A stretch of 31,673 nt of DNA. Origin: Tilletiaria anomala UBC 951 (lineage: Eukaryota; Basidiomycota; Exobasidiomycetes; Georgefischeriales; Tilletiariaceae). A program made the position numbers and the translations under genes. The notes under the pieces were generated by a model. The model worked only from the letters and a program-made list of their open reading frames with translations, searched no databases and was not told where the DNA came from. Of this stretch, positions 1-30,561 are shown piece by piece (position 1 is the stretch's first letter; each line of letters begins with the position of its first letter). The stretch lies in contig NW_013546873.1 in the NCBI RefSeq assembly GCF_000711695.1, forward strand, positions 1 through 31,673. The letters are read 5' to 3'.

Positions 1-175
1 CCCTGCCCTCGGAACCCCAACTCGCCCTGCCAAACTCCCCCGCACCCACTCTCCGCTGGCCATTATTTTGCACCTGCTTCCGCCCTGCCGTCAGAACTCG
101 CCGAGTCCATAGCACCCTTCACCTATAACCCATGTTACAGACACGCACAGAACCCGAGAACTGAGATTTTCAGCC

Positions 176-2401: not shown

Positions 2402-3474
2402 GCTCGAGCTTTTCCGGATAGATTCTCACACCCTTTGCTTAACGTCGTTTCCAATGTCACCAGATAGCGATATCAAGCACAGGCGCAAGGACATTTATAT
2501 GCACAATTTTACTCCTGTATACGCATGCACAAGGGGATTTAGAGCATTCGAGCATTGGCGCCCCTCCATGGTTAGGCCTCCAGGTGGTACTTTCCGTCGC
2601 GAGGCGGCACCCAACGCCTTTGTGCACCCCGCGATACCAATCAAAAAGGACGAACCGGACACCGGAAACGCATGCTGCACGGCAGGCACAAATTCGCGGT
2701 CAACAGCAGTAGAGCTCTTCGTACGACCCGAATTCACCGCTCAGACCTCCATTTCAACGTGCCTCAGCGTGCAGTCGCGGCCATCGAGTGTGCATTTTCC
2801 GCATCGCCAGCGTCGTCTCGATGGCGTTGATGGAGACTGGGCACTTGGATGCTGTAAAGAGACTCTCTGAACAAACTCTCGGCTCGTTCTTTGTTTATCA
2901 TCATCGACCGGAGCTTGGGTGGCAGGCTGTGGTATCGTTTCACATGATAAAGTCTTGGTCGAGGAGAGAGTTAAAATCAACCAGAATGGATGAATACCTA
3001 CCGGGGAATTTGGGCGGGGCTGTGGGGTGTGGATCGGAGACTTGTGCTGAGCGCTTTAATTTAAGCCCGATTGCCCGGAGCCGACTTTGCCAAGTTTGGT
3101 CGAGTAAGTCGCCTACTCTGCTCTGGTTTGTGGGGAACTGGGGCTATCCCCGCATTATCCAAAGCGGCGGCACTGTGCAGCACTGCACCCACTCCATTCC
3201 GAATGAACGACTGCATACAGCAAGGTATCCCCCAGTTGGAGAGGTAGTGTGCATATCCAAAGATGTTGAGCTTGTGCTAGGCTTTCGCATACATAGTACC
3301 ATCTACTCCATATAAGATTGGTTCTTCGCAGTATTCCGGCGAGCACAGCTCACAGGCTGCTGGAGGTAGCTACTTGCGTCCGTACGGCTCCATCGCCTGC
3401 ACACTCGCAGCCTGGCAGCGGAGTACGACAAGACGGCAGCGACTCAGTTTCAAACGCTCTCATCAGCAGTTTCG
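2402..3474. other. Intergenic spacer, no supported gene
   Basis: This 1.07 kb lies between the glucanase stop and the first ATG of the next open frame. Open frames up to about 175 codons occur on both strands, but they begin without ATG, resemble no family I know, and no consistent splice pattern joins them. The frame of the next gene stays open back to 3370, where an in-frame TAG ends it and no ATG precedes 3475, so a 5' exon could lie here undetected. The spacer should also hold the glucanase 3' end and the promoter of the next gene. Confidence 0.5.
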
Positions 3475-5439: not shown

Positions 5440-6068
5440 GCTTGCAGCGGCATTACACTGTACATTCTCTCTGCATTTATACCCACTAGCTCAGCCACTT
5501 CTTTTTGCCATCGCCACCAGTCAGCGACGACCCTCAGGCCATCAGAAACCCAAAGCTGATACGCATACATTGCCTTGGCAAAAATAATTCTGCATGCATG
5601 ACGGTGCCCAACCCTGCACTTGTACATATCTACATTACCGCATTGCCGAGGCTCTTGGTGGCTCATGAGATACTACGTCGGTAAGTATCTGCACTCTTTG
5701 ATCATAGCCTGGTAAGCGCTGAGTTAACGCATAGCAGGCCACTAGGCACCTTGGGCGCGCTGGAACTGCGCTGGTCCTCTGCAAGCGAAGCAAGGTCTCT
5801 CCAATTGCTGGGCACATGTACAAGGAGAGGGTTCCTTGGTGCAGCGGCAGCGAAGAGGTCGCTGAGATGGAGAAGTGATGCAGACTTCATTGCAGAAATC
5901 GGAATTGCCTGTTATTATCTGCGCCTTGATTGATTGGTGTGTGCTTGCTTATATTAGCGCGTGCACTCCAAAAATACGGGCACTGGCTCACACTTGCAAC
6001 CGCCACCCACGCGCTGCCAACATGTCTTGTCCACGTCTTGCGCTTCTGTGATATCAAGACGAGCTTGG
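5440..6068. other. Intergenic spacer and aldolase 5' leader
   Basis: About 630 bases with no supported gene. The first part is probably the 3' region of the preceding gene and the last 130 bases the promoter and leader of the aldolase. A nine-codon upstream reading frame, ATG at 6022 to TGA at 6051, lies in the presumed leader and is out of frame with the aldolase. Confidence 0.5.
5933..5956 (+). promoter_or_regulatory. Possible TATA and inverted CCAAT box of the aldolase gene
   Basis: ATTGG (inverted CCAAT, 5933-5937) lies about a dozen bases upstream of the TATA-like TTATATTA (5949-5956). Transcription starting some 30-60 bases downstream would place both candidate start codons (6069 and 6153) in the mRNA. 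This is a pattern match only. Confidence 0.3.
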
Positions 6069-7427
6069 ATGCTTCGTCCTCTCCTCACCCACATCTGTGA
6101 CAGCGTGCACAGGAATATCCGGCCTCGCCCGAAACTGATCGCAGCCCCATTAATGACATCCACACTCCACGGTGCGCCACCTCCGCCGCTTGGCGCGCTC
6201 GCCCCGACGACCGGGACCGGGAACGGTGCCGCTGGCCGCAGTGTGCCTCCGCCAGCGATCATTTCCCGCGCCCTGCGACCAGGTATCTATGCACCCGTGC
6301 CCACCTTCTTCACTGCCAACGAGGAGCTAGATCTCGTCAGCTTCAGCAAGCACGTCGTCCGTCTTGCGCAGGCTGGCGTCTTCCCCGTCATTAGCGGCTC
6401 GACGGGCGAAGCACCGCACCTGACTCCGCCAGAACGCACGGCGCTCATCAAGGCCGCTCGTTCGGCGTTCGCTTCGAACAGGCTCGACGGCGTGCCGATC
6501 ATCGCAGGTGCCAACGGCAGCTCCCTCAAGCACTCCATCGAACTCGCGTACGACGCTGCCAGCGCAGGCGCCGATGCCGTCATCGTCATCCCCTCCGGTT
6601 ACTTTGCTGGCGTAACCAACACATCAGACGGCAAGGCGGCCCTGCGCGAGTTCTACATCGAGCTGGCAAACCACAGCCCCATTCCGATCTTGATATACAA
6701 CTACCCTGGCGCCAGTGGCGGCATCAACATGGACAGCGACTTTTTGATCGACCTTGCCAAGAGCGCGCCCAATACTTGCGGCCTCAAGCTGACCTGCAAC
6801 GAGATTGGCAAGCTGCTCCGCATTTGCTCCGTCACTGCCGTGCCGGAATTCGCGACGTCGTACCCGCGGAAATTCCCGTACATTCCTTTCCTCGTCTTCA
6901 CTGGATACTCTGACACACTCGTGAGTCGCTGCTTACGCACACCGTCCATACACAGAGGCATTGACCTTTGATGAATGAATGTTCTTCACGGGTAGTACCC
7001 CGCGCTGATCGCCCGCGGTGCAGGGGCGATCACAGGTCTCGCAAACTTGGTCCCGCACACGGTACGGCGCCTCTTCGACATTGCCGTCACCTCAATCAAC
7101 GCCGGCTCCACAAATCACATGATTGAGGCCCAAGCGCTACAATCGACCGTCGCGCAAGCAGACTTCAACCTCTCCACCCACGGCATCGCAGGCATCAAAT
7201 GGGCCCTCTCGCGCTACGGTGCCGATTTGGGGTACGACTATACTGGCGGGCTCCCGCGTAAGCCGCTGCCGCCCTTGTCGGCCGGCGTCGACTTGCAGCT
7301 AGAACGACAACTGCACGAGATCATCGTGCGCGAGAAGGCACTCTTGCGCGAGCGCGAGCAAATTGGTGCCACTGCTGGCGTCGGCGCGTCAGCCGGTCCT
7401 AACCGCTCAACTACCTCTCTTCGCTAA
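6069..7427 (+). CDS. DHDPS-superfamily (class I) aldolase, two exons
   Basis: A pyruvate-type Schiff-base aldolase of the dihydrodipicolinate synthase/N-acetylneuraminate lyase superfamily. Exon 1 ends at 6920 and exon 2 is 6996..7427; the GTGAGT...GGTAG intron is 75 nt and phase 0. The TIM-barrel signatures are GSTGE (about residues 110-114), YNYPG with the catalytic Tyr (about Y210), and GLKLTCNE with the Schiff-base Lys (about K240). The Arg that follows the YNxP motif in true DHDPS is absent (PGASG instead). Fungi also make lysine through aminoadipate, so lysine synthesis is unlikely. 4-Hydroxy-2-oxoglutarate aldolase or the 2-keto-3-deoxy-L-galactonate aldolase of galacturonate catabolism fit better; the sequence alone does not decide. 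The first in-frame ATG (6069) gives 427 residues and adds 28 Arg-rich, nearly acid-free residues resembling a mitochondrial presequence. The ATG at 6153 gives a 399-residue form. The last 40 residues are a charged helix and a Ser/Gly tail. Confidence 0.9.
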
Positions 7428-7765: not shown

Positions 7766-10751
7766 CTACATCTTGCCAAAAGTCTCCAAGTCGTACAAGA
7801 AGTCTCCCGTCTCCTTGTCTTCTTCCGTAAACCACGTGCGGCAGACGAGATCAAAGCCCTCCGCATTACACGACCAAAACGGATCCGCTGTGTCCCAGTT
7901 AATCTGCGGCAGCATCAGGTTGGTGAGCGATGCTGGCGGCGTCGGGGAAGGCGGAGGCAGAGGCATAGGCGGGTCAAAGAATGGGATGGGCAACTGCGAA
8001 GGCAAGCAGCCGCCGCTGCTGGGCCTGGAGCGGGTGCTGTTGATCGACAGGCGCGAGCCAGGCTGATGCAGCAGCCGCTGCTCACACCCATACCCGCCTG
8101 CACCAAATTCGCCGTCATCCTCAACGCTTCCATTGAAGCTGCCGACTTGTCCGGAAGGGGACTGCGAGTAGATTCCATCTTCTGACTGACGATGGCCGTT
8201 GAGCAAGGCTCGCGATCTGCCCAATGACCTTCTCAAGGATCGATTCGAGTGGGCGCCCGGCCCGTCATGGTGACTGCACTTGTCGATGCGGTGGCACTTC
8301 ATCAGATCCCCACCGTCGTTGTCGTCCTCGACAAGTGCGGAAGCAAGCGCCAGCGCGCTGCGAGAGTGCAGCGTTGTCGCTGCCAATTGACGCTGGTTAT
8401 GCCGCACAGGAGGCTGTAGCGGCTTCAGCTCCACATCGATGACGCCCTCGGCGTTCTGTGAGATGAACCCTTCCGTGGCTTGCGCTGCATTGATCATCAC
8501 GTCATCGCTGGCCATGTCGCGGTTCTTTTCAACAGGCGACCAGGGCATATGCAGAGAAGGACTGGCGCCGCTGATCGCCTGTGGCGAGTCATACACATTC
8601 TCGTCCCGCGCGGAACTCGAGCTGCGGCTGCTCGGGCCGATCACAGTAACTTCCCCTCCTCCTCCTTCACTACCGCTTTGCGCGTACGCATGCGCATGCG
8701 ATCCAGATGTGGGTAAAGACGCGGGCATCGCATCGCCAGATGTTGCCCCAGCCGCAGAGGGCGGGCGGCTGCTGCGCTCCGGAATGGGAGGCACGGCTGA
8801 CGGCATGGACGAGCCGGCGGTAGAACCTTTGCCGGGGAGGTAGGCGTGGCCATTGTCGGCGCTGCCTGCACCTGTAGCTGCACTTCCACCTGTGCCTGCG
8901 TTTGCAGCTGCAGCTGCGGCTTGGCTGCTCTGCGGATTTTCAGGGCTTGTCTTGGTTGTGGAGAGTGACGCGATCGAGATGGTACCCCATGTGGAGTCGT
9001 GCCACTTTGGGCTGGATGTGTCGCGGCCGTCGCCGTCAGAGTCGTCCGTCGTCCCACTCGACGCCTGCTGCGTCGATATCGGTGATAGGCACAGCTCAAA
9101 GCGTTGCAACTGCTGATGTGCGTTTGGAAGTGCATATACGTCCAGAGGGGGAAGAGGATACTGCTGCTGTGCGGTGCCTGATGCTGCTGCTCCTACTTCT
9201 GAGCCCGTCTGGCACGCCACGTCATAGTCCTGCATCTCGTCCAAGCGTATCGCCTCGTCGATGTTCTCATACGTAGGCGGCAGCGGCGGCATGGCGGTTA
9301 CATTCGCGTCGTAGAGTATCTGCCCACCACTGCTATTGGCAAAGATTCCGCCGCTACTGCCGCCTGCAGAACGGAAAGCCGAGACGGAACGCATGATGGA
9401 GCTGCTCCGCGAGCGCGTCGAGCTGTCGTCACTGCCGTACATAACGAAAGGAATCGACGGGGTCCCACCAGTAGCAGGAGCGGAGCCGGCGCCAGCGCCC
9501 TGCGATAGACGTTTTCCAAATGAGCGGTGCAGCGAGGGGTAGCGGATGGACCAGCCGACCTTGAACCTTTTCGACTTTGTTGACGATGGCGTCATCGGCC
9601 GCGCCTGTGCGTCCTTGGATGTCGTAGGCTGCGACGCGAAGCCGTCTGCGCCGTACCTCGGCGCGCGGCCAATGCCGACGCCTTCGCTGGCAGACGGCAT
9701 ACACACGACGCGGATGGGCCCCACATCCTCTGCGGCGCGATGTCGCGCGTCTGCGTCGCCTTTCTCCTGGCGCTGCTGGATGGACGGGCTGGTGCCGTAG
9801 ATAGCGGTGGTGTGGTACTGGCGCCGCGCTCGATTCGCCATCTCGTGCTCGATGCGTGTCATCCAGGCCTCGGCAAAGCGCTGGTGGCCCTTGACGTTGA
9901 ATGTACCTTCGCACATGCCTCGCACTATGCCTTGCGGGTCAATGGCAAATGTGCAGCGGCCTGCGGGAGCGGTCGTGTGAGAAGACGGCTTGCATCTGCG
10001 ATATTATGCGCGGCCCATCGCGAGACTCACGATTTATCAGCCCAAAGAAGACCGTGCCGACGCCCCACTCGGTCTGCACCTTTCTATCCACATCGTGAAG
10101 GATTCTGAAGGCCAGCTGGTGCTCGTCTACAAACTTCTTTGCGCGCTCCCTGCCATCCTGGCTGTGTGCGAGGACGGAGCAGAAAAGGCAAGAGGGGGTA
10201 AGGTAGGAAGGAGATAGCGTCAGCTCAAGGCTCTGCATGAACACTTTGGTTCAGTTCACCTGCCAGCCTTCATGCGCAACGCACCTTATGCCAATGACGA
10301 TGGCATTCAAATAGTTGAATACGGGAGATTGGCTGATGGCGTCGCGGAATGAGCAAGTCTGTTGCTTGCAATGCGGCGAACCAGAGAGAGGCAAAAAGCT
10401 GGTCACACAAGAGTTTGTTAGGGGGGGGAGAGGCAAATGAGGGTGCATACGAACACAGCGTGGTCAGCTCGATCGTCGGTGACTTGATGGCTCCCAAGGC
10501 TCGGCAAGCAGAGGAAACGCAAAGCGAAGAGCCACTCACACGAGTACGATCAGCCGCCCGAGCTGGATGGTGGCATGCAAAGAGCATCTCCTCCCCAGGT
10601 GGTCGTCGAGCTCAATCTCGGGGGCATACTGTCCAATGAGCGGGCACCTCTTTCAGTCATTGACGGCGAATTTGATGTGGCTGTCGACAACAGCGAATGA
10701 ATTGTTTTCGTCGGTGTCCGGGTAGTAGCCCGCCTTTGACAGAGTAGGCAT
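7766..10751 (-). CDS. PrxQ/BCP-type peroxiredoxin domain fused to a long disordered tail
   Basis: Exons on the minus strand are 10540..10628, 10285..10398, 10031..10161 and 7766..9960, all joined in phase by GT-AG introns of 141, 123 and 70 nt. The spliced protein shows a thioredoxin-fold peroxiredoxin: GQYAPEIELDDHLG, then LIVLVFLPLSGSPHCKQQTC with peroxidatic Cys and a second Cys five residues on, as in atypical 2-Cys BCP/PrxQ enzymes. AIVIGIS, FRILHDVDRKVQTEWGV and RCTFAIDPQGIVRG follow. It should reduce peroxides using thioredoxin; the yeast relative Dot5 is nuclear. After about 175 residues comes a tail of almost 690 residues rich in Ser, Gly, Pro and Gln. It ends in an aromatic/acidic block (NWDTADPFW, then EGFDLVCRTWFTEEDKE). 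The N-terminus is unsure. The ATG at 10751 opens in the right frame, but a TGA at 10653-10655 interrupts it before the domain. Only a 60-nt intron with a weak GTCGAC donor (10629..10688) would remove the stop, giving about 863 residues. Confidence 0.82.
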
Positions 10752-14053: not shown

Positions 14054-17000
14054 ATGGCAGCCTACAGTAATGACGCAGGATACATCGCGCAAGGTCCGCG
14101 CTACCAGTTTGCCGACGAACGCGGTCTTGAAGGGCAGGATGCATGTGCGCATCGCCAACGGACAACGTATGACGTCGAACAAGCATGCAGCTACTACAGC
14201 CAGCCGCAGGACTCCTTCCTCTCTGATCCTTCGCATCCTCAGTATGCTCCTGCGCTGGATCCACAGCGCCAGCTGCGCAGTGTTAGAACAGCAGCCGAAT
14301 CGATTGCAGAGTCACATCGCTCCGAGGCAAGGCGAGATGCCAGGCGCAAAAAGATGTCCAGGCACAAGAAGGGAGAAAGCATCATCGCGAGGCTTGGGCG
14401 AGGTATGAGTCTGCGGCGAGGTATGAGCACAAAGAAGGGTTCCTCTCACGTAGCAGCAGGTGAGAAATCAGCAATTTCCAACCTCATCGCTGACGAATTT
14501 GGAAGAGACAAGATGCCGGTCGGAGCGTACGGGACGGGTGGAGATGCGATCGACGTACAATATGATTCAACACCGCAGCATCACATGCCGAATATTCCCA
14601 CGGCCGACGCACGCGAGGCAGCAGAAGAAGAGGCGCAAGCAGAGGCGGAAGACGTGAGCGCCGGCTTTAGCGGCGGTGCAGGGGTCGCCGACCTCAAGGG
14701 CAAGAAGAAGAAGCCGTCCGAGAGGCGGCAAGTGTTTATGAACGCGCCGCTACCGCGATCTGAGCTTAAGAAGAGCGGTGACCCGAAGCGCACCTATCCT
14801 CGCAATAAGGTCCGGACGTCCAAGTACACGATACTCACTTTCCTGCCGCGGTTCCTGTTCGAACAATTCAGACGCATCGCCAACGTATACTTCCTGCTGC
14901 TCATTATTCTTCAAGTGCGGCAAGAATTTACCGCTGGTGCCACAGTGCCACAGATCGCCATGCTCCCGCTTGTGGCTATCTTGACCATCACGGCCATCAA
15001 GGACAGCATCGAGGACTATAGGCGGCACGTCCTCGACAACCAGGTCAACAACTCTGCCGCCACGCGCCTCGGCATGTGGCGCAACGTCAACCAGCCCAAG
15101 GACCCTCGTAGCCTCTTGCAAAAGATGATTGGCCTCAAAGGCGGCCGCTCGCCAAACAAGGCCTCGCGTGGCGTCAAGAAGCTCCGAGAGAAGGAGGATG
15201 CAATCGGTATGCGCTCTGTCACATCCGGTCGCTCGCAAGCAGCTCACCATCAGCAGCAAGCACGGGGCCAAACGCAGGTCAGGCCCTCGACCGGACGGTC
15301 CCGTACCGACTCGTTGACCAGCGGAGGCTTTGCACTCGAAGCCATGACCAGCGAGAGCGAACGCCCCGAGTCCGAATGGCATTCCACCGCCTTCAGTATG
15401 GGGCGCTCGGGTAGCACGCGCAATTTGCTCGCACCAGTTTCGTCGTACACCAACTCGAACGCGCCGAGCCTTACACACGTTCCGAGTAACGGAGACAAGT
15501 CTTTCGCCCCTAGCGTGTCGCAGGGTGTCGTGGATTACTCGAGGCACGTGCCGGGGACCGCGCGCTGGGAGCGGACACTGTGGAAGAAGCTGGAGGTTGG
15601 AGATATAGTCCTTTTGCGCGAAGATGACCAGGTGCCTGCGGACATCGTTGTCCTCAGCACCTCGGACGCAGATGGCAATGCATACATCGAGACCAAGAAC
15701 CTTGACGGTGAAACCAACCTCAAAGTCCGTAAGGCACTCAAAGCGACCTCCGCCATCTTATCTGAGGAAGATGCCGAGCACGCACGGTTTGTCATCGACA
15801 GCGAGCCGCCGCACGCCAACCTGTACGCATACAATGGCTTGCTCAAATACAGCGTTCGCGACAGCTCGGATCCGTACGACTACGATAAAGAAGCGCCGCC
15901 GGACAGCAGCGCGGCCGCTGCGCAGAGCAAGCAGACCAGCAAGGTCGAGCCCGTCACGATCAACGAGCTCCTCTTGCGTGGCTGCTTTCTCCGGAACACC
16001 GAGTGGATCATTGGAATAGTCCTCTTTACGGGCGAAGACACAAAGATCATGCTCAACGGCGGTGACACACCTTCAAAGCGAAGCAAGATTGAAAAGGAGA
16101 CCAACTTTAACGTTCTGATGAACTTTGTGCTGCTCTTTGGCATGTGCCTTGCCTGCGCTATCGTCGGAGGGTTCAACCTCAATCGCACCGACACTTCCAG
16201 GTACTACTACGAGCAGAACTCGCTCTACTCCAGCTCCACTGTCGTCAATGGCATCATAATCTTCTTGTGAGTTGAGCTGAAAGCGTGCGGCGAGAATTCC
16301 TGTCTTCTGACGTGCTGCTCTGTACACACACAGCTCGTGCATGGTGGTGTTCCAGAACATCGTGCCCATCTCGCTGTACATCTCGATCGAGATTGTCAAG
16401 ACAATACAAGCATTCTTCATCTACCAGGACGTCGACATGTACTACGAACCGCTCGACTATCCTTGCGTGCCAAAGACATGGAACATCTCCGACGACCTTG
16501 GACAGATCGAGTACATCTTCAGTGACAAAACCGGCACGCTTACGCAGAACGTCATGGAGTTCAAAAAGTGCTCGATCAATGGCGTTGCATACGGCGAGGG
16601 CATTACCGAGGCTATGATCGGTGCGATGCGCCGCGAAGGCAAGGACACGTCTGGTATGGATGCGGACACGCAAGAGCGTCAGCTCGAGCAGTCGAAGGCG
16701 GCCATGATTAATACGATAACGCGCGCGTTCAAAAACCGCTACCTGCGCGAAGACAAGATGACGCTCATCTCTCCACCACTTGCGCAGGACATCTGCACGA
16801 GCACACCAGAAGGCGCCGGGCAGCGCAAGAACATCATCGCCTTCTTCCGAGCACTCGCGCTTTGCCACACCGCACTGGCCGACCGGCAAGACGCGAACGA
16901 CCCATTCACAGTGGACTACAAGGCCCAAAGCCCGGACGAGTCAGCGCTGGTCGCTGCTGCCCGTGATGTTGGTGCTGTGTTTTTGAACAAGAACAACCAG

Positions 17001-19860
17001 ACGATCGACATCGAAGTCATGGGCCACCCCGAACGCTTCATCCCGCTCAAAGTGCTAGAGTTCAACTCGACGCGCAAGCGCATGAGTGTTATTGTTAGGG
17101 AGCCAGAGGGACGCATTCTCCTAATCACCAAAGGAGCAGACTCGGTTATCTTCGAGCGCCTGCGCGCAGATCACCCTGCGGAGCTCAAGCAGAAGACCCA
17201 TCAGGATCTGGAAGACTTTGCAAATGCGGGTCTTCGGACGCTCTGCATCTCATACCGGTACCTTGATGAGGGCGAGTACCTGGAATGGAGCAAGATCCAC
17301 GACGAGGCCGCCGCTGCGCTGCAAGACCGTGACGAGCTTGTCGATGAGGCAGCCGAGAAGATCGAGGTCAACCTGACGCTCATCGGTGCCACAGCCCTTG
17401 AAGACAAGCTGCAGGTCGGTGTGCCTGAGGCAATCGAGAAGCTGCACAGAGCCGGCATCAAGCTCTGGATTCTGACGGGCGACAAGCTGCAGACGGCAAT
17501 CGAGATCGGCTTTAGCTGCAACCTTCTTACGTCCGAAATGGAGATCATGATCATTTCCTCAGATCATGCCGAAGGCACACGTGCCCAGATCGAGGCCGCT
17601 TGCCACAAGATCGCATCAGCAGGCCGACCAGTCATTATCAACGGAAAGGAGTGTCGCACCTTCCTGCGTGCTCCGGACTCTCAGATCTCTGCTATGGGCA
17701 AAGGGGGGTTTGCGGTCGTTATTGACGGCGAGACGCTCAAGTGGGCTCTATCTTCAGACCTCAAGGCGCTTTTCCTCGGCCTCACTACGCAATGCGAGGC
17801 CGTTGTCTGCTGCCGTGTCAGTCCGGCACAGAAGGCGCTCACGGTCAAGCTCGTCAAGGACGGCATGAATGCAATGACGCTTGCCATCGGAGACGGTGCG
17901 AACGATGTCGCCATGATTCAAGAGGCTCACTGCGGTGTCGGCATTGCTGGCCTGGAAGGAGCGCAGGCATCAATGTCCGCAGATTATGCCATTGGGCAGT
18001 TTCGCTTCCTGACCAAGCTGCTCCTTGTGCACGGTCATTGGAGCGTTGTCAGAATCGCTCGTATGCATGTGGTCTTTTTCATGAAGAACCTGGTCTGGAC
18101 CGGCACGCTTTTCTGGTTCCAGATCCACAATCAATTTGATGCGACTTGTGAGTTCAACTTTGCCTTCAAGTTATGATCTGCATTAACATTGCCCTCGGCG
18201 CTCGCCCGCCATTCGCAGATTTATACGACTATTCTTGTAAGTGATGATTAGCTCTGCTCTCCTTGGACGCCATCTGACGTGTTCCACTCCTTGCCTCACA
18301 GACATGTGAGTTTTTCGATCAGCCTCAAGGTAGCGCTCCGGCGGAGGCAACTGACATTCTCTCCATCTGTTCTTCACCCCTTCTAGCCTGCTATTCAACC
18401 TTGTATTCACGTCGCTTCCGGTGATTATTCTGGGAGCACTCGACCAAGATGTGAACGCGAAGGCATTACTCGCCGTACCCGAGACATACCGCAAGGGCAT
18501 CACTGGCGAATACTACACGCGCAGCATCTTCTTCTTGGCAGTCATCGACGCGATCTATCAATCCGCAGTCTGCTACTTTATTCCCTGGATCATGTGGTCG
18601 CTGTTCCCCGGCACATCCTGGAATGGCCTGGACATGACGACGCTCCTGCTCTTCGGAACGACTGTTGGCGCTGCAGCTGTCTTCTGTTGCAACTTGGTCG
18701 CAGCTCTTTCACAGAGCTATTGGTGAGTTACTCAATTGATGTGCAGAGGTGGCGGCGACTGATAACATACATTGTGCAGGACGGTCATCTTCTGGATTAT
18801 TACCGGTCTATCCATGGTCTCCTACCTCATTTGGGCGGCAATCTACTCGGCGCTGCCTTTTAGCTTCCGCAACATTGCGTTCGAGCTCTTCTCAACGCTT
18901 CTATTCTGGCTGACGATCTTACTTGTCGTCGTCGTTGCCATGCTTCCTCGCTACGTTTGCCAGGCTTGGCAATCGTGCTTCGCTCCGTCAGACTGCGATG
19001 TGGTGAGGGAAGCTTGGATTGCCGGCGATCTGAAGGACCGTCTTGGCGTTCCCCGCACCAAGTCACGTCCTCCGAATACCAAGACGCTCAAAAACATGGA
19101 AGAATACAATCCGACGGACGTTCATGCCCTTCCGCAGCGGCGAAGCAGAGAAAGCTCGGCCAACAATTCGGCAGATCCGCTTACGACAGATCCTGATGCC
19201 AAACAAGGCCCCTTTGCGGATCAGGCTTCCCAACATCGGGAGCCTCAATGGCACGTGGAGCAGCCTCAGGGCCAGGGCAAACAGAACCGGCTGAGCTTGC
19301 AGCCGCTCCAGATGCAGCGGTCAGGCACGGCGTTCAGTTTTTACGACCCAGAGCTGCTTTCGAGCATGTCACCACAATCACCGGAGCGGCATCAAGGCTG
19401 GACTCAGCAGCAAGGCAAAGGCCCCTTCGTCCCACAGATCAACGTGCAAAGGGGATCCGCTTCCAATTCCTTCACCTCCAAGGATCCACACGCCAAGCAG
19501 GATGTGTACAGCCCGTATGGGGTATACGCAGGTGGTGCTAGCAGCCACACTGCCCTAAATCAGTCGACAGACTCTTTTGAGCAACATTTCGAACAAGCCT
19601 TTGGCGCTCAACAACAGCGTCAATGGCAGGAGCCAACGCGTGGGCAACCGGTGGCCGCTATCTACAACCCTGCTTCGCGTTTCCATGATCGCTTCCGCAA
19701 CGGCCCCAGCTCGCCTCAGGCGTCGCCGCTCCGGCTACAAGACGACGCTTTCGAGCAGCTGACACCAACGCAAGCGCACCCATCTCTGCATCCGCGCGAC
19801 CAATCTGGAATGACCAACCAGAGCTATCACACTGCGGACGGAGATGGTGACTATCGGTAA
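14054..19860 (+). CDS. DNF1: P4-ATPase phospholipid flippase, Dnf1/Dnf2 type, six exons
   Basis: This ATP-driven flippase should move phosphatidylcholine/ethanolamine-type lipids to the cytosolic leaflet at the plasma membrane or endosomes, normally with a Cdc50/Lem3-family subunit. Exons are 14054..16266, 16334..18147, 18219..18236, 18302..18305, 18387..18722 and 18780..19860, totalling 1821 residues. Residues 1-250 are a basic, disordered N-terminus. TM1-2 begin after NKVRTSKYTILTFLPRFLFE. The actuator motif NLDGET is near residue 549, and PISL in TM4 near 748. The phosphorylated Asp is in FSDKTGTLTQN (about D802) and the hinge is GDGANDVA (about D1258). TM segments follow through LLFNLVFTSLPVIILGALDQ. 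Between TM2 and the actuator core lies a low-complexity insert of about 160 residues, at the place where yeast Dnf1 also has one. The tail after TM10 is about 300 Gln/Pro/Ser-rich residues. The start is the first in-frame ATG, context ATCAAGATGG. The match to yeast Dnf1/Dnf2 is clear; which paralogue is not. Confidence 0.96.
18219..18236 (+). other. 18-nt mini-exon of the flippase gene
   Basis: This exon lies between an acceptor ATTCGCAG and a donor GTAAGT. With one base from each neighbour it encodes the YLYDYS segment before TM7. The family sequence at this point in yeast Dnf1 is YLYEYTY, so the coding content is conserved. Confidence 0.9.
18302..18305 (+). other. 4-nt microexon (ACAT) of the flippase gene
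   Basis: The four bases are flanked by an acceptor CCTCACAG and a donor GTGAGT. The upstream intron (18237..18301, 65 nt) has a CTGAC branch-like site, and so does the downstream intron (18306..18386, 81 nt). Only by including exactly these four bases does the frame pass from YLYDYS through Tyr-Ile into LLFNLVFTSLPV. Skipping them shifts the frame of the last two exons. It supplies the last two bases of a Tyr codon and the first two of an Ile codon. Confidence 0.88.
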
Positions 19861-20383
19861 AGCACACACATGGACTCTATAGGTCGCACGTACTGTACAT
19901 TACACTTTCCGAATATGCCGTTGCTATAGAACTTTAGCACGTTATACACGAGCTTTTGATCACATCAGGTTAGCTGGGAGGCGTGCTGGATCCACCTCAG
20001 AGGGCGTCGCGTGCTCTTCGGTGCCAGCTTCATCCAGCCATGCTTGGTTTCTTGGGTGATGAGCCCAGGTGTGATATACCCCTGACGTATGTTCAACAAC
20101 TACCCGTGTAAAATATGCGGAGATGAAGCAAAGTTGATGACTTCCGTTTTCTTTTCTCGGCCGAGTGACTCTCCCTTTCACTTTTTGCAGCAGGTGTCTC
20201 ATCTCTCCCTCGTCCCAACCTCGTCATGCCTCCTATGGCGCAGGGCACACGTAGAAGGCAAACCTCGCTCCTGGCTTTGACGTTCGTTGACTTCCCGAGG
20301 CTTAGAATATCCTTTGGCGGTGGGTCGAAGTCGCTCTTGCATTTTTTGAAGCTTGCGGTAGCAATATCTGATCCTGAAGCAAG
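19861..20383. other. Spacer between flippase and PRPP synthetase
   Basis: The 523 bases hold the flippase 3' end and the promoter and leader of the PRPP synthetase. No additional gene was found. The bases just before the start at 20384 include pyrimidine-rich tracts. Confidence 0.6.
20166..20171 (+). promoter_or_regulatory. Possible Gcn4/Bas1-like TGACTC element
   Basis: TGACTC, about 215 bases upstream of the PRPP synthetase ATG, equals the core bound by the Gcn4 and Bas1 factors that control amino-acid and purine genes in yeasts, including PRS genes. A six-base match occurs often by chance, so this is suggestive only. Confidence 0.2.
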
Positions 20384-21976
20384 ATGCCGGGCGCGATTCG
20401 ATTGTTGACGGGAAGCTCGCATCCCGAGCTCGCCAACCTCGTTGCAAAACGACTGGGGGTACCGGTGACAAACTGCAGCTGCAGTCGTTTTGCGGACCAG
20501 TCGATCAATGTCCAGGTCGCGGACAGCATCCGAGACGATGACACCTACATCGTGCAAACGGGCTACAGTACCAGTATGGACCCCAATGATGCTTTGATGG
20601 AGCTCTTGATCATCATCTCCGCGTGCAAGACTGCCTCGGCTCGACGGATCACTGCAGTCATTCCAGCTTTTCCATACAGTCGTCATGACAAGAAGGACAA
20701 GTCGAGAGCGCCTATCACGGCCAAGCTGGTCGCCAACATGATCACAATAGCAGGCGCAGACCACGTTATTACGCTGGACCTACACGCCAGCCAGATTCAG
20801 GGATTCTTTGATATTCCGGTGGACAATTTGACCAGCGAGCCAAGTGTCGCTAGGTGGATCAGAAGCAACGTTCACAACTGGCGAGACTCGATCATCGTCA
20901 GTCCAGACGCCGGAGGTGCTAAAAGGTAAGCCGTAGCTAGTATAAACATTAGAGTTGTCAGAGGTCTGACACTATGCGAACTCTCGCCGCCTCAAGAGCG
21001 ACAGCGCTTGCGGACGCGCTCGGCGTGGACTTCGCACTCATCAACCGAAATCGCAAACGGGAAGCAAACCGACGAGCGCGCGCTGCCAGACTTGCGAAGC
21101 ACCCAGGAGCATTGAGCACACGATCCAGCTTCAGTGACCTGCGTAGCCACCCGCAAACTCCACTCTCTGGCAGCATCGTCGTCGACCCTCAGATGGCACC
21201 GCAGCAGCCAGGCCGTGGTGAGCCCTCTTCCGGCGTTAACAGTAATCAGCAGATCCCACTTCCTTCAGCTATGAACGACTCACTACAAGCACTTAGTATG
21301 GGCGATGGCAATAGCAGTGGAGCGTCGCCTCCAGCCGTGGTCAAGAAACAGCAATTCTTCGATGTTGCCAATGGCGTCCAGGCGAATGAGAATGGCGAGT
21401 GGGTTATGACCGATGCTGAAGGTTACCGCGTCACCTCGGGAAGCAAGAGCCGTCCGTTAGACAGTGCAACCAACGATAACGCCGAAAGCGGCGTGAGCGA
21501 GACAGAAGATGAGAGAGAAACCAAGATGGAGATTTTGGTCGGAGACGTAGCTGGCAGGATTGCGATTCTCATCGACGACATGATCGACACCGGCAAGACT
21601 CTTGCGCTTGCCGTCAAAACCCTAAAGGATGCCGGCGCCAGCGAAGTGTATGCTATCGTTGCTCATGGCTTGCTCAGTGGGAAAGCGACAGACCTGATCA
21701 AGCGCCTCGATGTGGAAAAGCTAGTGGTGAGTGACGGTCCACGCGATGCATATGACTTGCACCTCCTTTCGTTTGCAGATCCGCTGGCTCACTGTTCTTC
21801 GCTTACTACGCACGCAGGTCACTAACACCATTCCAAACAGCGAGAAAATCGCCGCCACGGAAAACAAGCTGGAGATCATGGACGTCAGCGCGGTGCTCGC
21901 GGAGAGCATCCGGCGATCGCACAACGGCGAGAGCATCAGCCTCCTCTTCCGTGAAGATGCTGCGGCATTGTACTAG
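20384..21976 (+). CDS. PRS1: Ribose-phosphate pyrophosphokinase (PRPP synthetase), Prs1/Prs5 type
   Basis: It should make phosphoribosyl pyrophosphate from ribose 5-phosphate and ATP for purine, pyrimidine, His, Trp and NAD synthesis in the cytosol. Fungal Prs proteins work as hetero-oligomers and touch cell-wall integrity signalling. Exons are 20384..20925, 20997..21726 and 21818..21976; introns are 71 and 91 nt with GTAAGC and GTGAGT donors; the total is 476 residues. The PRPP synthetase signature [16 protein letters not shown] starts at D132, the loop DAGGAKR at about D175, and the ribose-5-phosphate loop DDMIDTGKT at about D374. Residues about 195-357 form an insert not found in ordinary PRPP synthetases, placed as the non-homologous regions of yeast Prs1 and Prs5. 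The C-terminus ([14 protein letters not shown]...AAALY) resembles Prs1 more than Prs5, but the assignment between the two is tentative. Unlike yeast Prs1, the DAGGAKR loop is canonical, so it may be catalytically competent by itself. Confidence 0.95.
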
Positions 21977-22096: not shown

Positions 22097-24041
22097 TCAG
22101 CCAACAACACCGACCCGGTCAATGTCGGGCGCGTATTGCGAAAGGTACGTGCCGCCACTGATCGAGATAGTGTTTTCCTTACCGGGCTGGAAGCCGCTGA
22201 GTTCAACGAGGAAACTCTTCCACACGTCTTTGTCCCAGTTGTATCCGCTGAGCGGGAAGTAGACCTGCTGAGACAGGCCATTGTTGACACTTACGCTCGC
22301 GCCACGAGCATTGGTGACGTTGACGAAACTACGAATTCAATGGAAGCGTACGTCAGGTACGTGTTCCAACATGACCAAGCGGCCCCACTTTGAGCTCACC
22401 TGTATTGAACATCAGCATTTATATAGTCGAACCTGACGTTGGATTTCATTTGCGATGTCTGGATGTTTTTGAATGTGAGCGTGCCGATATTGCCAACCTT
22501 CTTGCTTCCCGAGCAGCCAGACCAGCTGGCGACGGCCGCACCGTTACTGAGAACTGCATTTTCAGCCTCGTAGTAGTTGTACGTAGGGTTACTCGGCGTA
22601 GAAACCTTGATGTTGGAGATACGAAGGGCAATATTTCCGTGAGCATTGATGATCGCCGACCAGGAACTAGCCCCGGTGCGCGTAGCACCGCTCCAGAGAT
22701 CATTGACATCGGCTGAAGTGATGTTGAGTTGCTGGAAAATGATGGACTTGGTGCCGGTGTTGCCTCCTTGCTTGTCGAGCAAGACAACGACATCGCCGTT
22801 CGCCAAAGGTCCAGAGTACAGATCATAGTCATTGCTCCAGCGTTGGACGAGCGTGATCGGCCTGCCAAGGCTGTCCTGGTTGATCGCGATTAGATCTTTG
22901 TTGAGAAGAATGCTCGGTCTGGCTGGAAGGCGAAACGACATCGGTCGAGATCATCAGAGCTGACTTCATGGCTGCCCATAAGGCGAAGTGTGTCTTCTGC
23001 TCGTCAAAGGTGAGGGCCTTGTTACCGACTTCGAGCAGGTCACCGTCAGCAAAGTGTCCTGGATCATGAAGGCCTCGCAGGTTGATGTTCATGGCTTGGT
23101 TCGAGATACGGACGACAGAAATCCAGTCATTAGTAATGTCGTCACTGAGCCTGAAGCGAGTGGCGAGTGGTGGTGTCCATTGAGCGGGACCCTGTAGGCC
23201 CGTCGGGCTTGCATACGGAATGCCCCATGCGCACACGAGCATACCATTGATACCATTGTTTTGCAGGGCTGTCGACATGTTCCCATACCGAGAGGGGAAG
23301 TCAGTCCGAGGGTCCTTGGGGGCGTTGTTGACACCATCGACGTAACAGTTGTCGACTTTGGTCTTGCGTCGCCGTTGAAATTCATGATCAGTTCACCGTG
23401 CACATTTCCACGCCAGCAATGTACAACTCACGTATACGTGCCCAAGGACGCGAATAACTTTGCATCTATCTCTTCGTAACCGAGCGAGCCGAATGGGGGA
23501 GGGTTGCGAGTGTCGCAGGATTTGAGGCCTGCATCAGTGTACCTGATTTGATTGGACCGACGTTGCATATGTCAGTATCCATGCAGAGTTTTGTTACTGT
23601 TGAAGCGTGCGCGGAAAACATATATTGACTACAGCAGACCATTGCTGCGTGCAGAGTTGGCGAGAGCAGACAGACCATTCGGAAAAGCCTTGTGATTGAC
23701 GGCAGGTTGGCCGTTAGCGGACCTGTTCGTACCTTGCCACCCGCAGTCGATTTGAAAGTACTTGTATCCAGCTGCGACGAATCCATTCGATTTGAGCGCG
23801 TTGATGGCGTTCTGGATGCCGTTTTCATTCGGCGAGCAGGAAGATTGATTGTACCTATTCCAGCCTTGATTTGTCAAGCGTTTTTGTGTCAGGCTCATAG
23901 TTCCCTGCAAGAACCTCCGCCAAGAACATATCGACTCACCATCACTGGCGTTTAGCCAAACCCATTATTAAACGCGGAGACTCGAGCGGTCGCCAGCGAG
24001 AAGACCGTCAGAGACAAAATGAAGGCGGCAAAGGGCTTCAT
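22097..24041 (-). pseudogene. GH27 alpha-galactosidase with CBM35-like domain, disrupted
   Basis: The intact ancestor would be a secreted enzyme removing terminal alpha-galactose from oligosaccharides or galactomannan. The ATG at 24041 opens a signal peptide (MKPFAAFILSLTVFSLATA), then FNNGFG. Further pieces show GWNRYNQSSCSPNENG, YKYFQIDCGW, KVDNC with the nucleophile Asp, and DPGHFADGDLLEVGN with the acid/base Asp region. The C-terminal part has YEAENAVLSNG and DIDRVGVVG, a CBM35-like galactose-binding fold. Its last intron (22329..22399) splices perfectly to a TGA at 22097. The 5' half does not: an in-frame TAA at 23952-23954 replaces a residue between FNNGFG and TPVM, and the next acceptor reads CAAG one base out of phase. 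The FGxY strand before YTDAG is missing, and the join at 23362 does not keep frame. Near 22930 the frame changes between STDV and SILLNKD with no possible intron. Conservation is otherwise high, so loss is recent or the assembly has indel errors. It converges on the PRPP synthetase with 120 bases between. Confidence 0.85.
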
Positions 24042-25995: not shown

Positions 25996-27677
25996 ATGGT
26001 TCTTCCATCTATTCTGACGGTTCCCACCATCCTCCTGTCAGCCGCAGGACTGACACTGTGGGTGACGTGGAGTTCTCCGGACGCTCCCTTCAGCGCTCCA
26101 AAGTTTCACGAATCGTCCCATCATTACTCTGACGTCGCTGAGCGATCTCTGCGCCTGCAGCGGCCGCAGATGCGCATGTATGAAGCGGAAGACGTGATGC
26201 CGCAGCCAGCCCTGCCAAAGGGAAGATCCAGAAGATGTGTACCAAAGGTGAGCACGATGCATGCTTTACCATGGCGCTGATCCACGCTCTGTCATCAGGG
26301 CTACTACGGTGACTGATCCATTTATGCCAAGGCGGACTTCCCCATGGACGTGCCTACTACCGATTTGAACCATCTTACATTCTTGTTCGCGGACGTCAAG
26401 CCCACCGGAGATGTTTTTCTCACCGACTTGTGGGTCGAGTGAGAATGAGCTGCACGAACACAACGAAGCCCAGTTCCCTCGCTGACCAGAGCTTCGCCTC
26501 TTCTTTGCCTCCTCCTCGATTGGATGTCCACACCGAGTAGATTCACTATAATTAGCCCGGCCTCGCGGAAACGGACTTCTGGAAGGACCGAGCGGGCATG
26601 AACAATCTCTACGGCAGCCTGAAGTGCTTTGGCTTGATGAAGCTGCTGAACCGCTCTTTCAAGCTGCCGGTATCGATTTAAGGGTGGACGTACATCCCCC
26701 ACTTCTGGCCTATGACGATGAGCATTGATCGGCGCAGGCTGTTTATACGCACGACCGTGCAGCTGCTCGAGGACCACGGCTTTGGCGGTGCTGACATTGA
26801 CGGGGAGTTCTCCGCGGACGCCAAGCGGACGACAGCGATGACGAACTTGCTCAAGGTGCTCGTGGCCCTGAATGCGGCGCAAGCCAAGCGGACGACTACG
26901 ACCAAGCCAAAGTTCCTGCTTACCGTTGCCGTGTCTGCGAGTCGGACGCACATCTCGACGATGAACCTGGCCGGCATGGACCAGTGGCTAGACTCCTGAA
27001 ACATCATGGCATGCAACTTTGCAGGCTCGTGACCCAGCACGGTGGAGCACCAGGCAAACCTGTACAATGCCACCAACACGTCGCCGGCGTCGGAAGCGAA
27101 GGGCTCGGGCTCGGGCGAGATGCAGGCGCGCATGAAGGCTGGCATCGCGGCGCACAAACTCGTCCTTGGCCTGCTGCTCTACGGGTGCTCATTCGTTAAT
27201 ACGGCCAGCTTGGCAAATCGTTCCAGGGCGTCGGCGCCGGCGGCGATGGGTACTGGGAACTGAAGGCGCTGCCGCTGTCTGCCAGCCAACATCACAGAGG
27301 ACATGTACGATGGCGCTTCGTACTCGCACTACAAGACGCAACCCATCCCTCGTCTCGTATGATATGCCCGCCGTTTTTGACTTTAAAGGCCAATTACATC
27401 AACAGCACCGGTCTTGCGGGCGCCATGTACTGGGAGATTGCTGGCGATTACTGAACCACGTCCAAACCTGGCTCGATGATCAGCCGCGTGGCTTGGCAAG
27501 GCGAGTGGCTCGCAGCTACCCCTTCCCCACGGCAACCTGCGCGACTGCGATTGTTGGAGACTAATTCAAAACATGTACATGCCCTGCTGGTAATTCCAGC
27601 TCGGCAAGCTCGACGCGACCAAGAACTACATCAGCTACCCCTTCAAGTTTGACAATGCCCGCAACGGCTTCAATTGA
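25996..27677 (+). pseudogene. GH18 chitinase relic, heavily degraded
   Basis: The intact relative would hydrolyse chitin, in wall remodelling or nutrition. The ATG at 25996 (context CACCATGG) starts a hydrophobic N-terminal segment. The first exon ends in VPK at 26247, and the GTGAGC intron (26248..26298) joins in phase to GYYGD. There TGA (26314) stands where chitinases have Trp, followed by SIYAKADFPMDVP and NHLTFLFADVKPTGDVFLTD. Later pieces are recognisable: GWTYIPHF (preceded by TAA), QLLEDHGFGGADIDGEF, KFLLTVAVSAS, MNLAGMDQWLD, HQANLYNATNTSP, KLVLGLLLYG. The last piece is LDATKNYISYPFKFDNARNG, ending in TGA at 27675. The active-site DGxDxDxE motif has become GGADIDGEF, losing the first Asp and the Trp. 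Several stops and frame changes separate the pieces, so no functional chitinase is expected. This decay is older than that of the neighbouring alpha-galactosidase. Confidence 0.85.
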
Positions 27678-28924
27678 ATTGCTAGCCCCAGGCCGCTGCA
27701 CCCACGATAGCAAGACTCGACCTGTCCGACCGTGAGGTGACGATTCCCCAATCCCGACACGTCGTGCTCGAAACGAGCAAGGGATACATTCTTTGATGTG
27801 TATACTGCGGTTTTCTTCATTATAATGTTACATGCGAGGGACGCAGTTGCGGACAACCTTTTGAACATGCTTGCGACCTTCACATCTTTCGGGTTCGAAG
27901 CGTAGATTTATTTACGATTTTTATGGTGGGTTAGGCTTTGCCTTCAAGTGTTCCGCGCTTGTGTGGTGCTGGAGCAGCCTTCTCGCCGCCACGTGCGAGA
28001 TTCTGCAAACGTCGTTTCTGTTGGCTGGCTGCTACGGTGCCGCTGGCGTCTGCCCCACTCCAGAGGGTAGGCACTCTCGGCTCGCGCTGTGGGCCACTTG
28101 CAAATTTGCAGCCTCTGGGTCTCGATCACATCCCATTCTTGCCGCTGCGCGCCGGGACGAGAGCATGGCCAGTGAGGAGTCCAGGCCTGTGCGCCGTGCG
28201 GTTCCGCCCCTGCGGTCCTGTGCACCAGCTGGTGGCGCACAACCCCAGTCAACACACAGTCGAGTTTCTCGCTCGCGCCGAATGGATATATTTTGGGGAC
28301 GAGGCTGTGGGCAGTTTGCGAGCAAAAGAAAGGAGGCGGGGAAGCCGAGTGTGTCAAGATGGTGGCCAGGCGCAAGAGGAAGGGAAGGAAGGATGGGACC
28401 TGCACGGAAAGAGAGAGAAAAAAAGGAGGAAAAACACATGAAAGGACTCTAAAAGTTCAGAGGCTGGAAGGTGGCGACAAAGAAAAGAAAACGGTCACTG
28501 CAGCGCTTGTTTTGGACGTGTGGCTCGTCGTGCTGTCTCTCCCGTTTGTAATTTGGTTGGAACACGCTTCAAAGCGAGGAGAGGAATAATGATCCGACGA
28601 GTGCAAGACGGCAGGTCTGGGAGAGAGTAGATTTATTGCTTTTGCTGGACGTGTGCACGTCAACTGCTGCAGTCTGCTGTCGCGCTCCGGGATTCACGTT
28701 GGACAGGCCTACGTTTCCTTTCCTCCTGCCACTGCCAACTGGTCTGCGTCAAAAAGCACCGTGATTTTTCTAACCCAGCAGCCATATCTGCTCGTGTCAC
28801 TCCTTCCTTACAAGAGCTACTCTCTTGGCCGGCACGTCTCTCCTACACCTAGCCCCTTGAGAGGTCCAAGCGCAGGAATCGCATCAAGACCCACCCCGTT
28901 TCGTGACTAGCACCTTAGACCACC
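27678..28924. other. Spacer and promoter region of the desaturase
   Basis: 1.25 kb with no supported gene. Several frames of 130-190 codons are open on both strands between 27871 and 28452, but they overlap each other, are Arg-rich and resemble no family, which is typical of GC-rich noncoding DNA. A purine-rich tract (28325-28500) precedes pyrimidine-rich sequence. An inverted CCAAT-like TTTGGTTGG (28553-28561) lies about 365 bases upstream of the desaturase start. A 5' UTR intron cannot be excluded. Confidence 0.5.
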
Positions 28925-30561
28925 ATGGCGTCGCCAAACGTGACGACGGCGTCGCTTCGCAAGTCCGCCACGCAGGCCGCTGCCACGCAGGCCGCTGCCA
29001 CGCAGGCATCAGGGCCCGCCGCCGGCTCCGCCACTGCGAACCCGACGCCCACTAAATACTCGCACAGGCAGGCCAAGGCATACAAGCCGTCTGAGCTGCC
29101 GCAGTACACGGTGCCCAACTTCACCATCAAGGACTTGCTCTCCGCCATTCCCGCACACTGCTTTGAGCGCTCGGCGCTGCACTCCTTCGCTTACGTCTTT
29201 GCCGACCTGGCGATGGTCGCTGCGCTGGCATATGCCGCCACTTTTATTGACCCGCTCGTTTCAAGTGTCGACTTCAGCCGCCAGTCGCCCCTACCGGCGA
29301 GCGTCCTGTCGGCCGCCGCTCAACAAACGGCTGCACGCTGGTCTCTCTGGGGCCTGTACACCTTCTTCCAAGGCTGCGTCTTCACCGGCCTGTGGGTCAT
29401 CGCACACGAGTGCGGCCACCAGGCATTCTCCACGTCCAAGTCACTCAACAACGCCGTCGGCTGGGTCCTCCACTCTGCTCTCCTCGTGCCGTACCACTCC
29501 TGGCGCATCAGCCATGCCCGCCACCACGCCGCCACGGGCCACCTGACGCGCGACGAAGTCTTTGTACCACGCACCCGTGCGCAGAAGGGCCTCCTTCCGC
29601 TCAAGCGGGCTGAACAGCAACTCCAGGACGACGGTTCGGACGTTGAGGCTGAAGAGGGGCAGGTGCTCAACGCCGTCGCGCCTGCTGCGAAGCACGAGAG
29701 CGTCACCGTTGCGCCAGAGTACCAGAATGAGCACGAGAAGGAGTCCTTTGGCGAGTGGCTCGCCGAGGTGCTCGAGGACGCACCTGCATACAACCTTGTC
29801 ATGCTCGTTCTGCAGCAGCTGTTCGGCTGGCCGATGTACCTCATCAAGAACACCTCCGGCCAGCTCCACTACCCTAAGGGCACCAATCGTGAGCAGCATT
29901 TATCCGATCATCCGAAATATACACGAATGCGCATGCTAACTTTGCTCTGCTGACAAACACAGACTTCCAGCCGGAGTCGGTCATCTTTGACGCACGCCAC
30001 CGCATGCAGATCATCGCCTCGGACATTGGCCTGGCTATCACACTGTCTGCGTTGTGCGTGTGGGGCACCCACCTGTCGCCGAACGGCTTTGTCGACGTCG
30101 CACGCTACTACTTGGTCCCGTACCTGTGGTGCAACCACTGGCTGGTGATGATTACATGCCTGCAACACACGGACGTCGCGCTGCCGCACTACCAGGCGTC
30201 TGAGTGGACCTTCCCGCGGGGCGCGTTGTGCACCATCGACCGCAGCTGGCTGTGGCCCATCGGCCCGTACCTGCTCCACGGCATCGCCGAGACGCACGTC
30301 TGCCACCACATCTCCTCCAAGATCCCGCACTACCACGCGTGGGAGGCGACCGAGGCGCTCAAGCAGCGCCTCGGCGAGCACTACAAGGCAACGACCGAGA
30401 ACGTCTTTGTTAGCCTCTGGAGGAACTCGCGCGCGTGCAAGTTCGTCGATGAGAACGACAAGATCGCCTTCTACCGCAACGCCCACGGCGTCCCCTCCGC
30501 CATCGTTAAGAACAGGAAGGCGGATGAGAACTCGGATTCCGGCCTTGCGCTCTCCGATTAG
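28925..30561 (+). CDS. FAD2: Delta-12 (oleate) fatty acid desaturase, two exons
   Basis: This ER membrane di-iron enzyme should introduce a second double bond into oleoyl chains to give linoleate, using cytochrome b5 electrons. Exon 1 is 28925..29888 and exon 2 is 29963..30561; the 74-nt intron runs GTGAGC to ACACAG and the join gives ...GTNHFQPES. Total 520 residues. The three histidine boxes are HECGH (about H161), HARHH (about H197) and HVCHH (about H433). Hydrophobic segments flank them in the usual two-plus-two arrangement. Between box 2 and the later membrane segments lies a charged loop with DDGSDVEAEEGQ. The first 60 residues are an Ala/Thr/Gln-rich tail. The start has a near-ideal context, CACCATGG. 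Box spacing and sequence favour delta-12; the closely related delta-15 enzymes cannot be ruled out without a phylogeny. Confidence 0.94.
28967..29007 (+). repeat. 15-bp tandem repeat in the desaturase N-terminus
   Basis: A 15-base unit, GCCACGCAGGCCGCT, occurs twice exactly and then as an 11-base partial copy. In frame it adds repeated Ala-Thr-Gln-Ala-Ala blocks to the N-terminal tail. Copy number may vary between strains without affecting frame. Confidence 0.85.

Follow-up and report, generated by a model that had tools for sequence, protein, structure and literature searches.

Can an exon of only four nucleotides be a regular part of a fungal flippase gene? This question is raised by a 31,673-nucleotide stretch of DNA from Tilletiaria anomala UBC 951 (contig NW_013546873.1, positions 1 to 31,673, hereafter the window), in which the gene for a Dnf1/2-like P4-ATPase appears to contain the exon ACAT at positions 18302-18305 of the forward strand. 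A first-pass annotation had proposed this exon next to another of 18 nt, with introns of 71, 65 and 81 nt around them, and we found both exons and all three introns again in the sequence. From the splice sites, the reading frame and the alignments, we infer with a probability of about 0.88 that ACAT is a genuine internal exon of this gene and is constitutively included.

In our model the coding sequence runs from 14054 to 19860 on the forward strand, and six joined exons give a protein of 1821 amino acids with no internal stop. Exon 1 (14054-16266) begins with an ATG at 14054, presumably the start codon, and terminates inside the fourth transmembrane helix (M4). Intron 1 (16267-16333) is 67 nt long, GTGAGT..CACAG, with a branch-like CTGAC motif. 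Exon 2 (16334-18147) encodes most of M4, the cytosolic P and N domains, M5 and the start of the M5-M6 loop, and its final base opens the codon for the first Tyr of YLYDYS. Intron 2 (18148-18218, 71 nt, GTGAGT..CGCAG) has a branch-like TTAAC motif 33 nt before the 3' splice site. The 18 nt of exon 3 (18219-18236) finish the codons of YLYDYS and supply the first base of the following Tyr codon.

Intron 3 (18237-18301, 65 nt, GTAAGT..CACAG), with CTGAC 25 nt before its 3' splice site, leads to exon 4, the microexon ACAT, at the start of M6. ACAT contributes the second and third bases of the codon for Tyr-1349 and the first two bases of the codon for Ile-1350. Behind it lies intron 4 (18306-18386, 81 nt, GTGAGT..TCTAG), with CTGAC 33 nt before the 3' splice site. 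Exon 5 (18387-18722) covers M6 to M8, intron 5 (18723-18779) has 57 nt and reads GTGAGT..TGCAG, and exon 6 (18780-19860) encodes M9, M10 and a long C-terminal tail that ends with TAA at 19858-19860. The CTGAC and TTAAC motifs were identified with the branch consensus that we assume for such introns. ACAT is well within the 15-nt limit for ultra-short internal exons and has canonical flanking signals: the CACAG acceptor and GTGAGT donor, both present as the first-pass annotation had claimed, and CTGAC branch-like motifs. The spliced frame reads NQFDAT-YLYDYS-YI-LLFNLVFTSLPV and is open to the stop ending at 19860; around the junction the predicted product with ACAT is NQFDATYLYDYSYILLFNLVFTSLPV.

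The protein carries PhoLip_ATPase_N (PF16209), PhoLip_ATPase_C (PF16212) and the motifs DKTGT and GDGANDV at residues 802 and 1257, as expected of a P4-ATPase. According to Pfam, the frame of exon 1 contains PhoLip_ATPase_N and E1-E2_ATPase (PF00122), and exon 2 contains Cation_ATPase, two HAD-type hydrolase families and the beginning of PhoLip_ATPase_C (PF13246, PF00702, PF08282 and PF16212). For the part from M5 to M10 the closest solved structures are 6lcp (247.9 bits), which we take to be a fungal Dnf1, DNF1 (234.8) and DNF2 (223.8), and the next is 9dzv (183.9). By these scores it is a flippase nearest to Dnf1/Dnf2 among the solved flippases. The N- and C-terminal extensions are long, the first hydrophobic peak being near residue 268 and the last ending near 1529. 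A long low-complexity insertion (15060-15600, forward strand), Ser/Gln/Arg-rich by eye, follows M2 and precedes the conserved part of the actuator domain.

The helices were assigned from hydropathy peaks together with a PISL motif at 749-752 and the two catalytic motifs, using P4-ATPase numbering as we assume it to be. This places M4 at about 734-752, M5 at 1317-1335, M6 at 1350-1368 and M7 at 1397-1415. The cytosolic domains also have peaks, near 639, 1127 and 1213, which are weaker. The junction with the split codons corresponds to residues 1349-1350 (Tyr-Ile) at the start of M6, and the location around TM7 given by the first-pass annotation is off by one helix.

In total, 20 PDB sequences were matched (about ten proteins by name, several of them in many constructs), and HMMER alignments were shown for five of these. 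None of the five has a gap in the junction region when ACAT is included, and this holds for the proposed line-up with yeast Dnf1. At the same place 6lcp has YTYILMFNLF, DNF1 has YTYMMFYNLA and DNF2 has YTYLTFYNLA. The pair of residues at the junction is Tyr-Ile both here and in 6lcp, Tyr-Met in Dnf1 and Tyr-Leu in Dnf2. The peptide of exon 3 is also matched without gaps, to YIFEYT in 6lcp and YLYEYT in DNF1.

To find alternatives that keep a frame, parses of 18100-18460 with one, two or three introns (GT/GC..AG, 40-300 nt each) were enumerated. Among the 36931 parses, 2289 are open and in frame (five with one intron, 314 with two and 1970 with three). We ranked these by the summed BLOSUM62 score against five solved flippases, and the parse with ACAT is at the top with 1015, followed by a runner-up with 947.

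If ACAT is skipped the frame ends at codon 1361, compared with 1821 residues when it is included, and if the 18-nt exon is skipped as well it ends at codon 1355. In both cases the stop codon is complete after 38 nt of exon 5, with about 300 nt between it and the last junction downstream. Skipping would thus break the frame and truncate the flippase as the first-pass annotation had said, the part lost being M6-M10 and not TM7-10. Retention of intron 2, 3 or 4 gives an early stop at codon 1351 or 1352. When the 18-nt exon alone is skipped, the frame is kept with six residues fewer, and the PF16212 score falls from 260.3 to 240.5 bits.

To estimate how often such an arrangement arises by chance, dinucleotide shuffles of 18243-18380 were made with both ends of 18237-18386 kept (20000 per setting). 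We counted shuffles with a YAG acceptor, a GTRAGY donor, introns of at least 50 nt and a restored frame, criteria that were chosen after the site had been seen. Exons of 1 or 4 nt whose two introns both have a branch motif were obtained in 4 of 20000, none of them coding [YF][ILMV]; without the branch motifs there were 23, two of them coding [YF][ILMV]. For exons of up to 25 nt the counts were 21 with branch motifs and 83 without, and a 4-nt exon coding [YF][ILMV] did not occur.

As a yardstick for the splice sites, ten exon joins in the window were tried and six further introns were kept: two in the flippase gene and one each in the GH5-like, DHDPS, ribose-phosphate pyrophosphokinase (PRPS) and desaturase genes. 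These introns are 57-81 nt long with GTRAGT or GTRAGC donors, and all nine modelled introns carry such donors. The yardstick is small and partly circular, because the introns were selected partly by consensus. For the PRPS intron the third-listed candidate, tied for the top score, was taken; it joins GGAKR sensibly, which we take to be a motif of this enzyme. The joins that gave no convincing candidate, three in the alpha-galactosidase gene and one in a minus-strand gene (7766-10250), were dropped; the single intron candidate in the latter has 42 nt and reads GTGAGT..GCAAG. The nine introns were also compared in 36 pairs for signs of intron duplication (introner-like). Local scores did not exceed 21, and for the top six pairs the shuffle fractions are 0-0.065, values uncorrected for the 36 tests and for pyrimidine tracts.

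Several points weigh against the ACAT exon. A parse with two introns (18148-18218 and 18241-18386) and no ACAT is in frame and gives a protein of equal length. The claim that the frame cannot be carried without ACAT does therefore not hold, as a shift of the donor to 18241 also gives an open and equally long protein. The shift replaces Tyr-Ile with Cys-Asn, and Cys-Asn scores better for 5 of the 20 PDB sequences, namely four DRS2 constructs (by 0.4 bits) and 6k7g (by 1.9), therefore Tyr-Ile is not a rule for the whole class. In the PF16212 profile the two differ by just 3.9 bits (260.3 for Tyr-Ile and 256.4 for Cys-Asn). A distant relative found in genome contigs (L001, see below) has Leu-Ser at this position, by a hand count back from FTSLP. 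Counting the ACAT site, the window has four copies of the bare motif YAG-N4-GTRAGY on its two strands, and by itself the motif is thus not rare. Finally, a plant study describes microexons as being spliced less efficiently, the machinery being unable to occupy both sites simultaneously (PMC8831610), which speaks in favour of the view in the first-pass annotation that exons this short are below the usual size. The case draws its strength from signals, phase and homology taken together and not from the bare motif. The other three copies of the motif are at 5708 and 7919 on the forward strand and at position 16832 of the reverse complement.

The shifted donor is the most serious competitor. It requires no microexon: a single intron of 146 nt (18241-18386, forward strand) replaces introns 3 and 4, its donor GTGATG is 4 nt downstream, the final acceptor is unchanged, and the 18-nt exon grows to 22 nt. 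The resulting protein, YLYDYS-CN-LLFNLVF around the junction, is the second-best open parse (the 947 given above), and one fewer intron is needed. Every GTRAGT donor holds a GT at +5, and moving the donor by 4 nt alters the phase just as much as including a 4-nt exon. Donors separated by 4 nt (GYNNGY) have been described as a class with alternative use (PMC4267661). However, positions +5 and +6 of GTGATG do not follow the consensus, and the donors of the nine modelled introns are all GTRAGT or GTRAGC (the four outside the flippase gene picked in part by consensus). An intron of 146 nt is also about twice the length of the modelled ones. The shift keeps the frame at the cost of poorer conservation: Tyr-Ile scores better than Cys-Asn for 15 of the 20 distinct PDB sequences, and by 4.3-6.7 bits in the four best. 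The support for ACAT at the protein level is moderate, with the splice sites bearing the remainder, and a shifted donor would leave the signal set CTGAC..CACAG/ACAT/GTGAGT without explanation. We consider it very unlikely that the shifted donor is used in place of ACAT.

We see a similarly small chance that both are used. ACAT inclusion and the 4-nt donor shift would then be interchangeable, a frame-buffered choice between two forms of the flippase that differ at a membrane helix. If this were true, a missed ACAT combined with a slipped donor would keep both frame and length, and the only change would be from Tyr-Ile to Cys-Asn at the start of M6.

With ACAT included, each of introns 2, 3 and 4 would be recognised by intron definition through signals of its own: a strong donor, a branch site and a YAG acceptor. 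Introns 3 and 4 are probably removed sequentially, as the acceptor of the first and the donor of the second are just 4 nt apart. The 4 nt added by joining would restore the frame, which passes from the M5-M6 loop through Tyr-Ile to M6. The first-pass annotation regarded exons of this size as too short for intron definition. According to a review, however, the efficiency of intron-definition splicing is set by the length of the intron, and the length of the exon is irrelevant (PMC8624252). Tiny exons would thus not be forbidden by intron definition, and the introns here have 65-81 nt. For C. elegans it is reported that microexons are freed from dependence on PRP-40 when their flanking introns are shorter (PMC8378409), and stronger splice sites are described among the compensations for poor microexon splicing (PMC8831610).

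The first-pass annotation further suggested that regulated inclusion could act as an on/off switch. Here ACAT, with or without the 18-nt exon, would be conditionally skipped, and the frameshift would give a flippase without M6-M10 and probably nonsense-mediated decay. The early stop upstream of the last junction fits such a switch, and a microexon that depends on the carbon source is described for Xlr2 of Trichoderma virens (PMC11121469). Together with Cryptococcus neoformans, in which certain genes show skipped exons and splice sites shifted by small distances (PMC3990503), this case means that alternative splicing in fungi is real. Xlr2 is a fungal microexon gene like the one proposed here, but it is regulated and has two protein forms, both described as functional (PMC11121469); the product of skipping here hardly would be. 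Microexons that yield alternative proteins usually have a length that is a multiple of three (PMC11121469), which the 4 nt of ACAT are not. ACAT has strong splice sites, a feature described for constitutive microexons of the human brain (PMC8831610), and constitutive inclusion already accounts for the observations. The consequences of skipping tell what would happen if it occurred and not that it occurs, so regulation of ACAT is a conjecture to which nothing in the window points, and we rate the switch as very unlikely. A spliceosomal twin intron (stwintron) over 18237-18386, with ACAT wholly removed, can practically be dismissed: stwintrons are numerous in some fungi (PMC9024468, PMC12403724) and in our own reading can resemble adjacent short introns, but on inspection the removal of either inner intron rebuilds no GT donor or AG acceptor at the edge of ACAT, and the loss of ACAT breaks the frame.

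Relatives were searched for with parts of the flippase. Exon 2 gave three pattern matches against viral contigs, none of them a relative, and the M5-M8 peptide gave no match there. Against genome contigs the same peptide gave ten pattern matches, from which two loci remained, L001 (2697-3167, 36% identity) and L002 (2560-3030, 35% identity). At this identity they are too distant to be suited to a comparison of introns. Both are P4-ATPase-like and are located on short contigs of two metagenome-assembled genomes labelled as bacterial. P4-ATPases are regarded as eukaryotic, and these contigs may be eukaryotic contamination.

Pfam also identifies several neighbouring genes in the window. A ribose-phosphate pyrophosphokinase gene (20380-21825, forward strand) has Pribosyltran_N in its first open frame and a likely intron of 71 nt (20926-20996); its next open frame includes a stretch that by eye is of low complexity. 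The others are a DHDPS family member (5958-6971, forward), an alpha-galactosidase (Melibiase_2, 22829-23392, reverse), a GH18 member (26682-26999, forward) and a fatty acid desaturase with DUF3474 (28919-29953, forward). No Pfam match at an E-value of 0.001 was found for the open frames 113-1369 (forward, 418 aa), 3370-5439 (forward, 689 aa) and 7766-10003 (reverse, 745 aa). By eye the first of these resembles a GH5 glucanase and is a candidate only. Together with the style of the introns, the genes present suggest a fungal and probably basidiomycete source.

If ACAT is included as proposed, it would add a very short exon in a conserved fungal membrane-transporter gene. There is also a risk for annotation. 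A pipeline that is unable to place exons of 4 nt could choose the shifted donor, which preserves the frame but places two incorrect residues where M6 begins, or could miss ACAT and truncate the flippase. A literature search pairing "P4-ATPase" and "microexon" found no paper, and this search is the sole basis for any statement that such a case is not in print.

How does this gene compare with known systems? With the Dnf1/Dnf2-type P4-ATPases (6lcp, 7drx and 7ky5, the three best PDB matches) it shares the common P4-ATPase domains and a junction that aligns without gaps. In a broad comparison it differs in that the gene is split by two tiny exons and the protein has the long low-complexity insertion and tails. 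The nearest parallel to the exon itself is the 1-nt exon in the CYP621A genes of Fusarium, which was inferred from phase and homology and is described as supported by RNA reads (PMC12940212). In both cases an ultra-short internal fungal exon would restore the codon phase in a conserved motif, and the route to it is the same: phase, homology and an apparent intron that is too long. The Fusarium exon differs in being 1 nt long, in a P450 gene, with 20 orthologues and RNA reads, while here there are 4 nt in a P4-ATPase gene, read from the genome sequence.

The P450 genes of Phanerochaete chrysosporium, also a basidiomycete, are similar in their many short introns and very short exons (PMC1184071). 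The shortest exon described there has 6 bp, while ACAT has 4 nt, a length that is not a multiple of three, splits two codons and belongs to a flippase. In plants, exons of at most 15 nt have been catalogued (PMC8831610), and APC11 of Arabidopsis has a constitutive exon of 1 nt (PMC4674806). Plant APC11 and VPS55 resemble the gene studied here in having ultra-short exons, which are often missed by annotation, and VPS55 has conserved GTRAGT donors (PMC4674806, PMC8831610). They differ in kingdom and gene, in their conservation across land plants and in the tests described for them, which include RNA-seq, RT-PCR or reporters. Ultra-short exons are thus already known in both plants and fungi, and from its signals, phase and homology ACAT looks like a further example of them that calls for no new mechanism.

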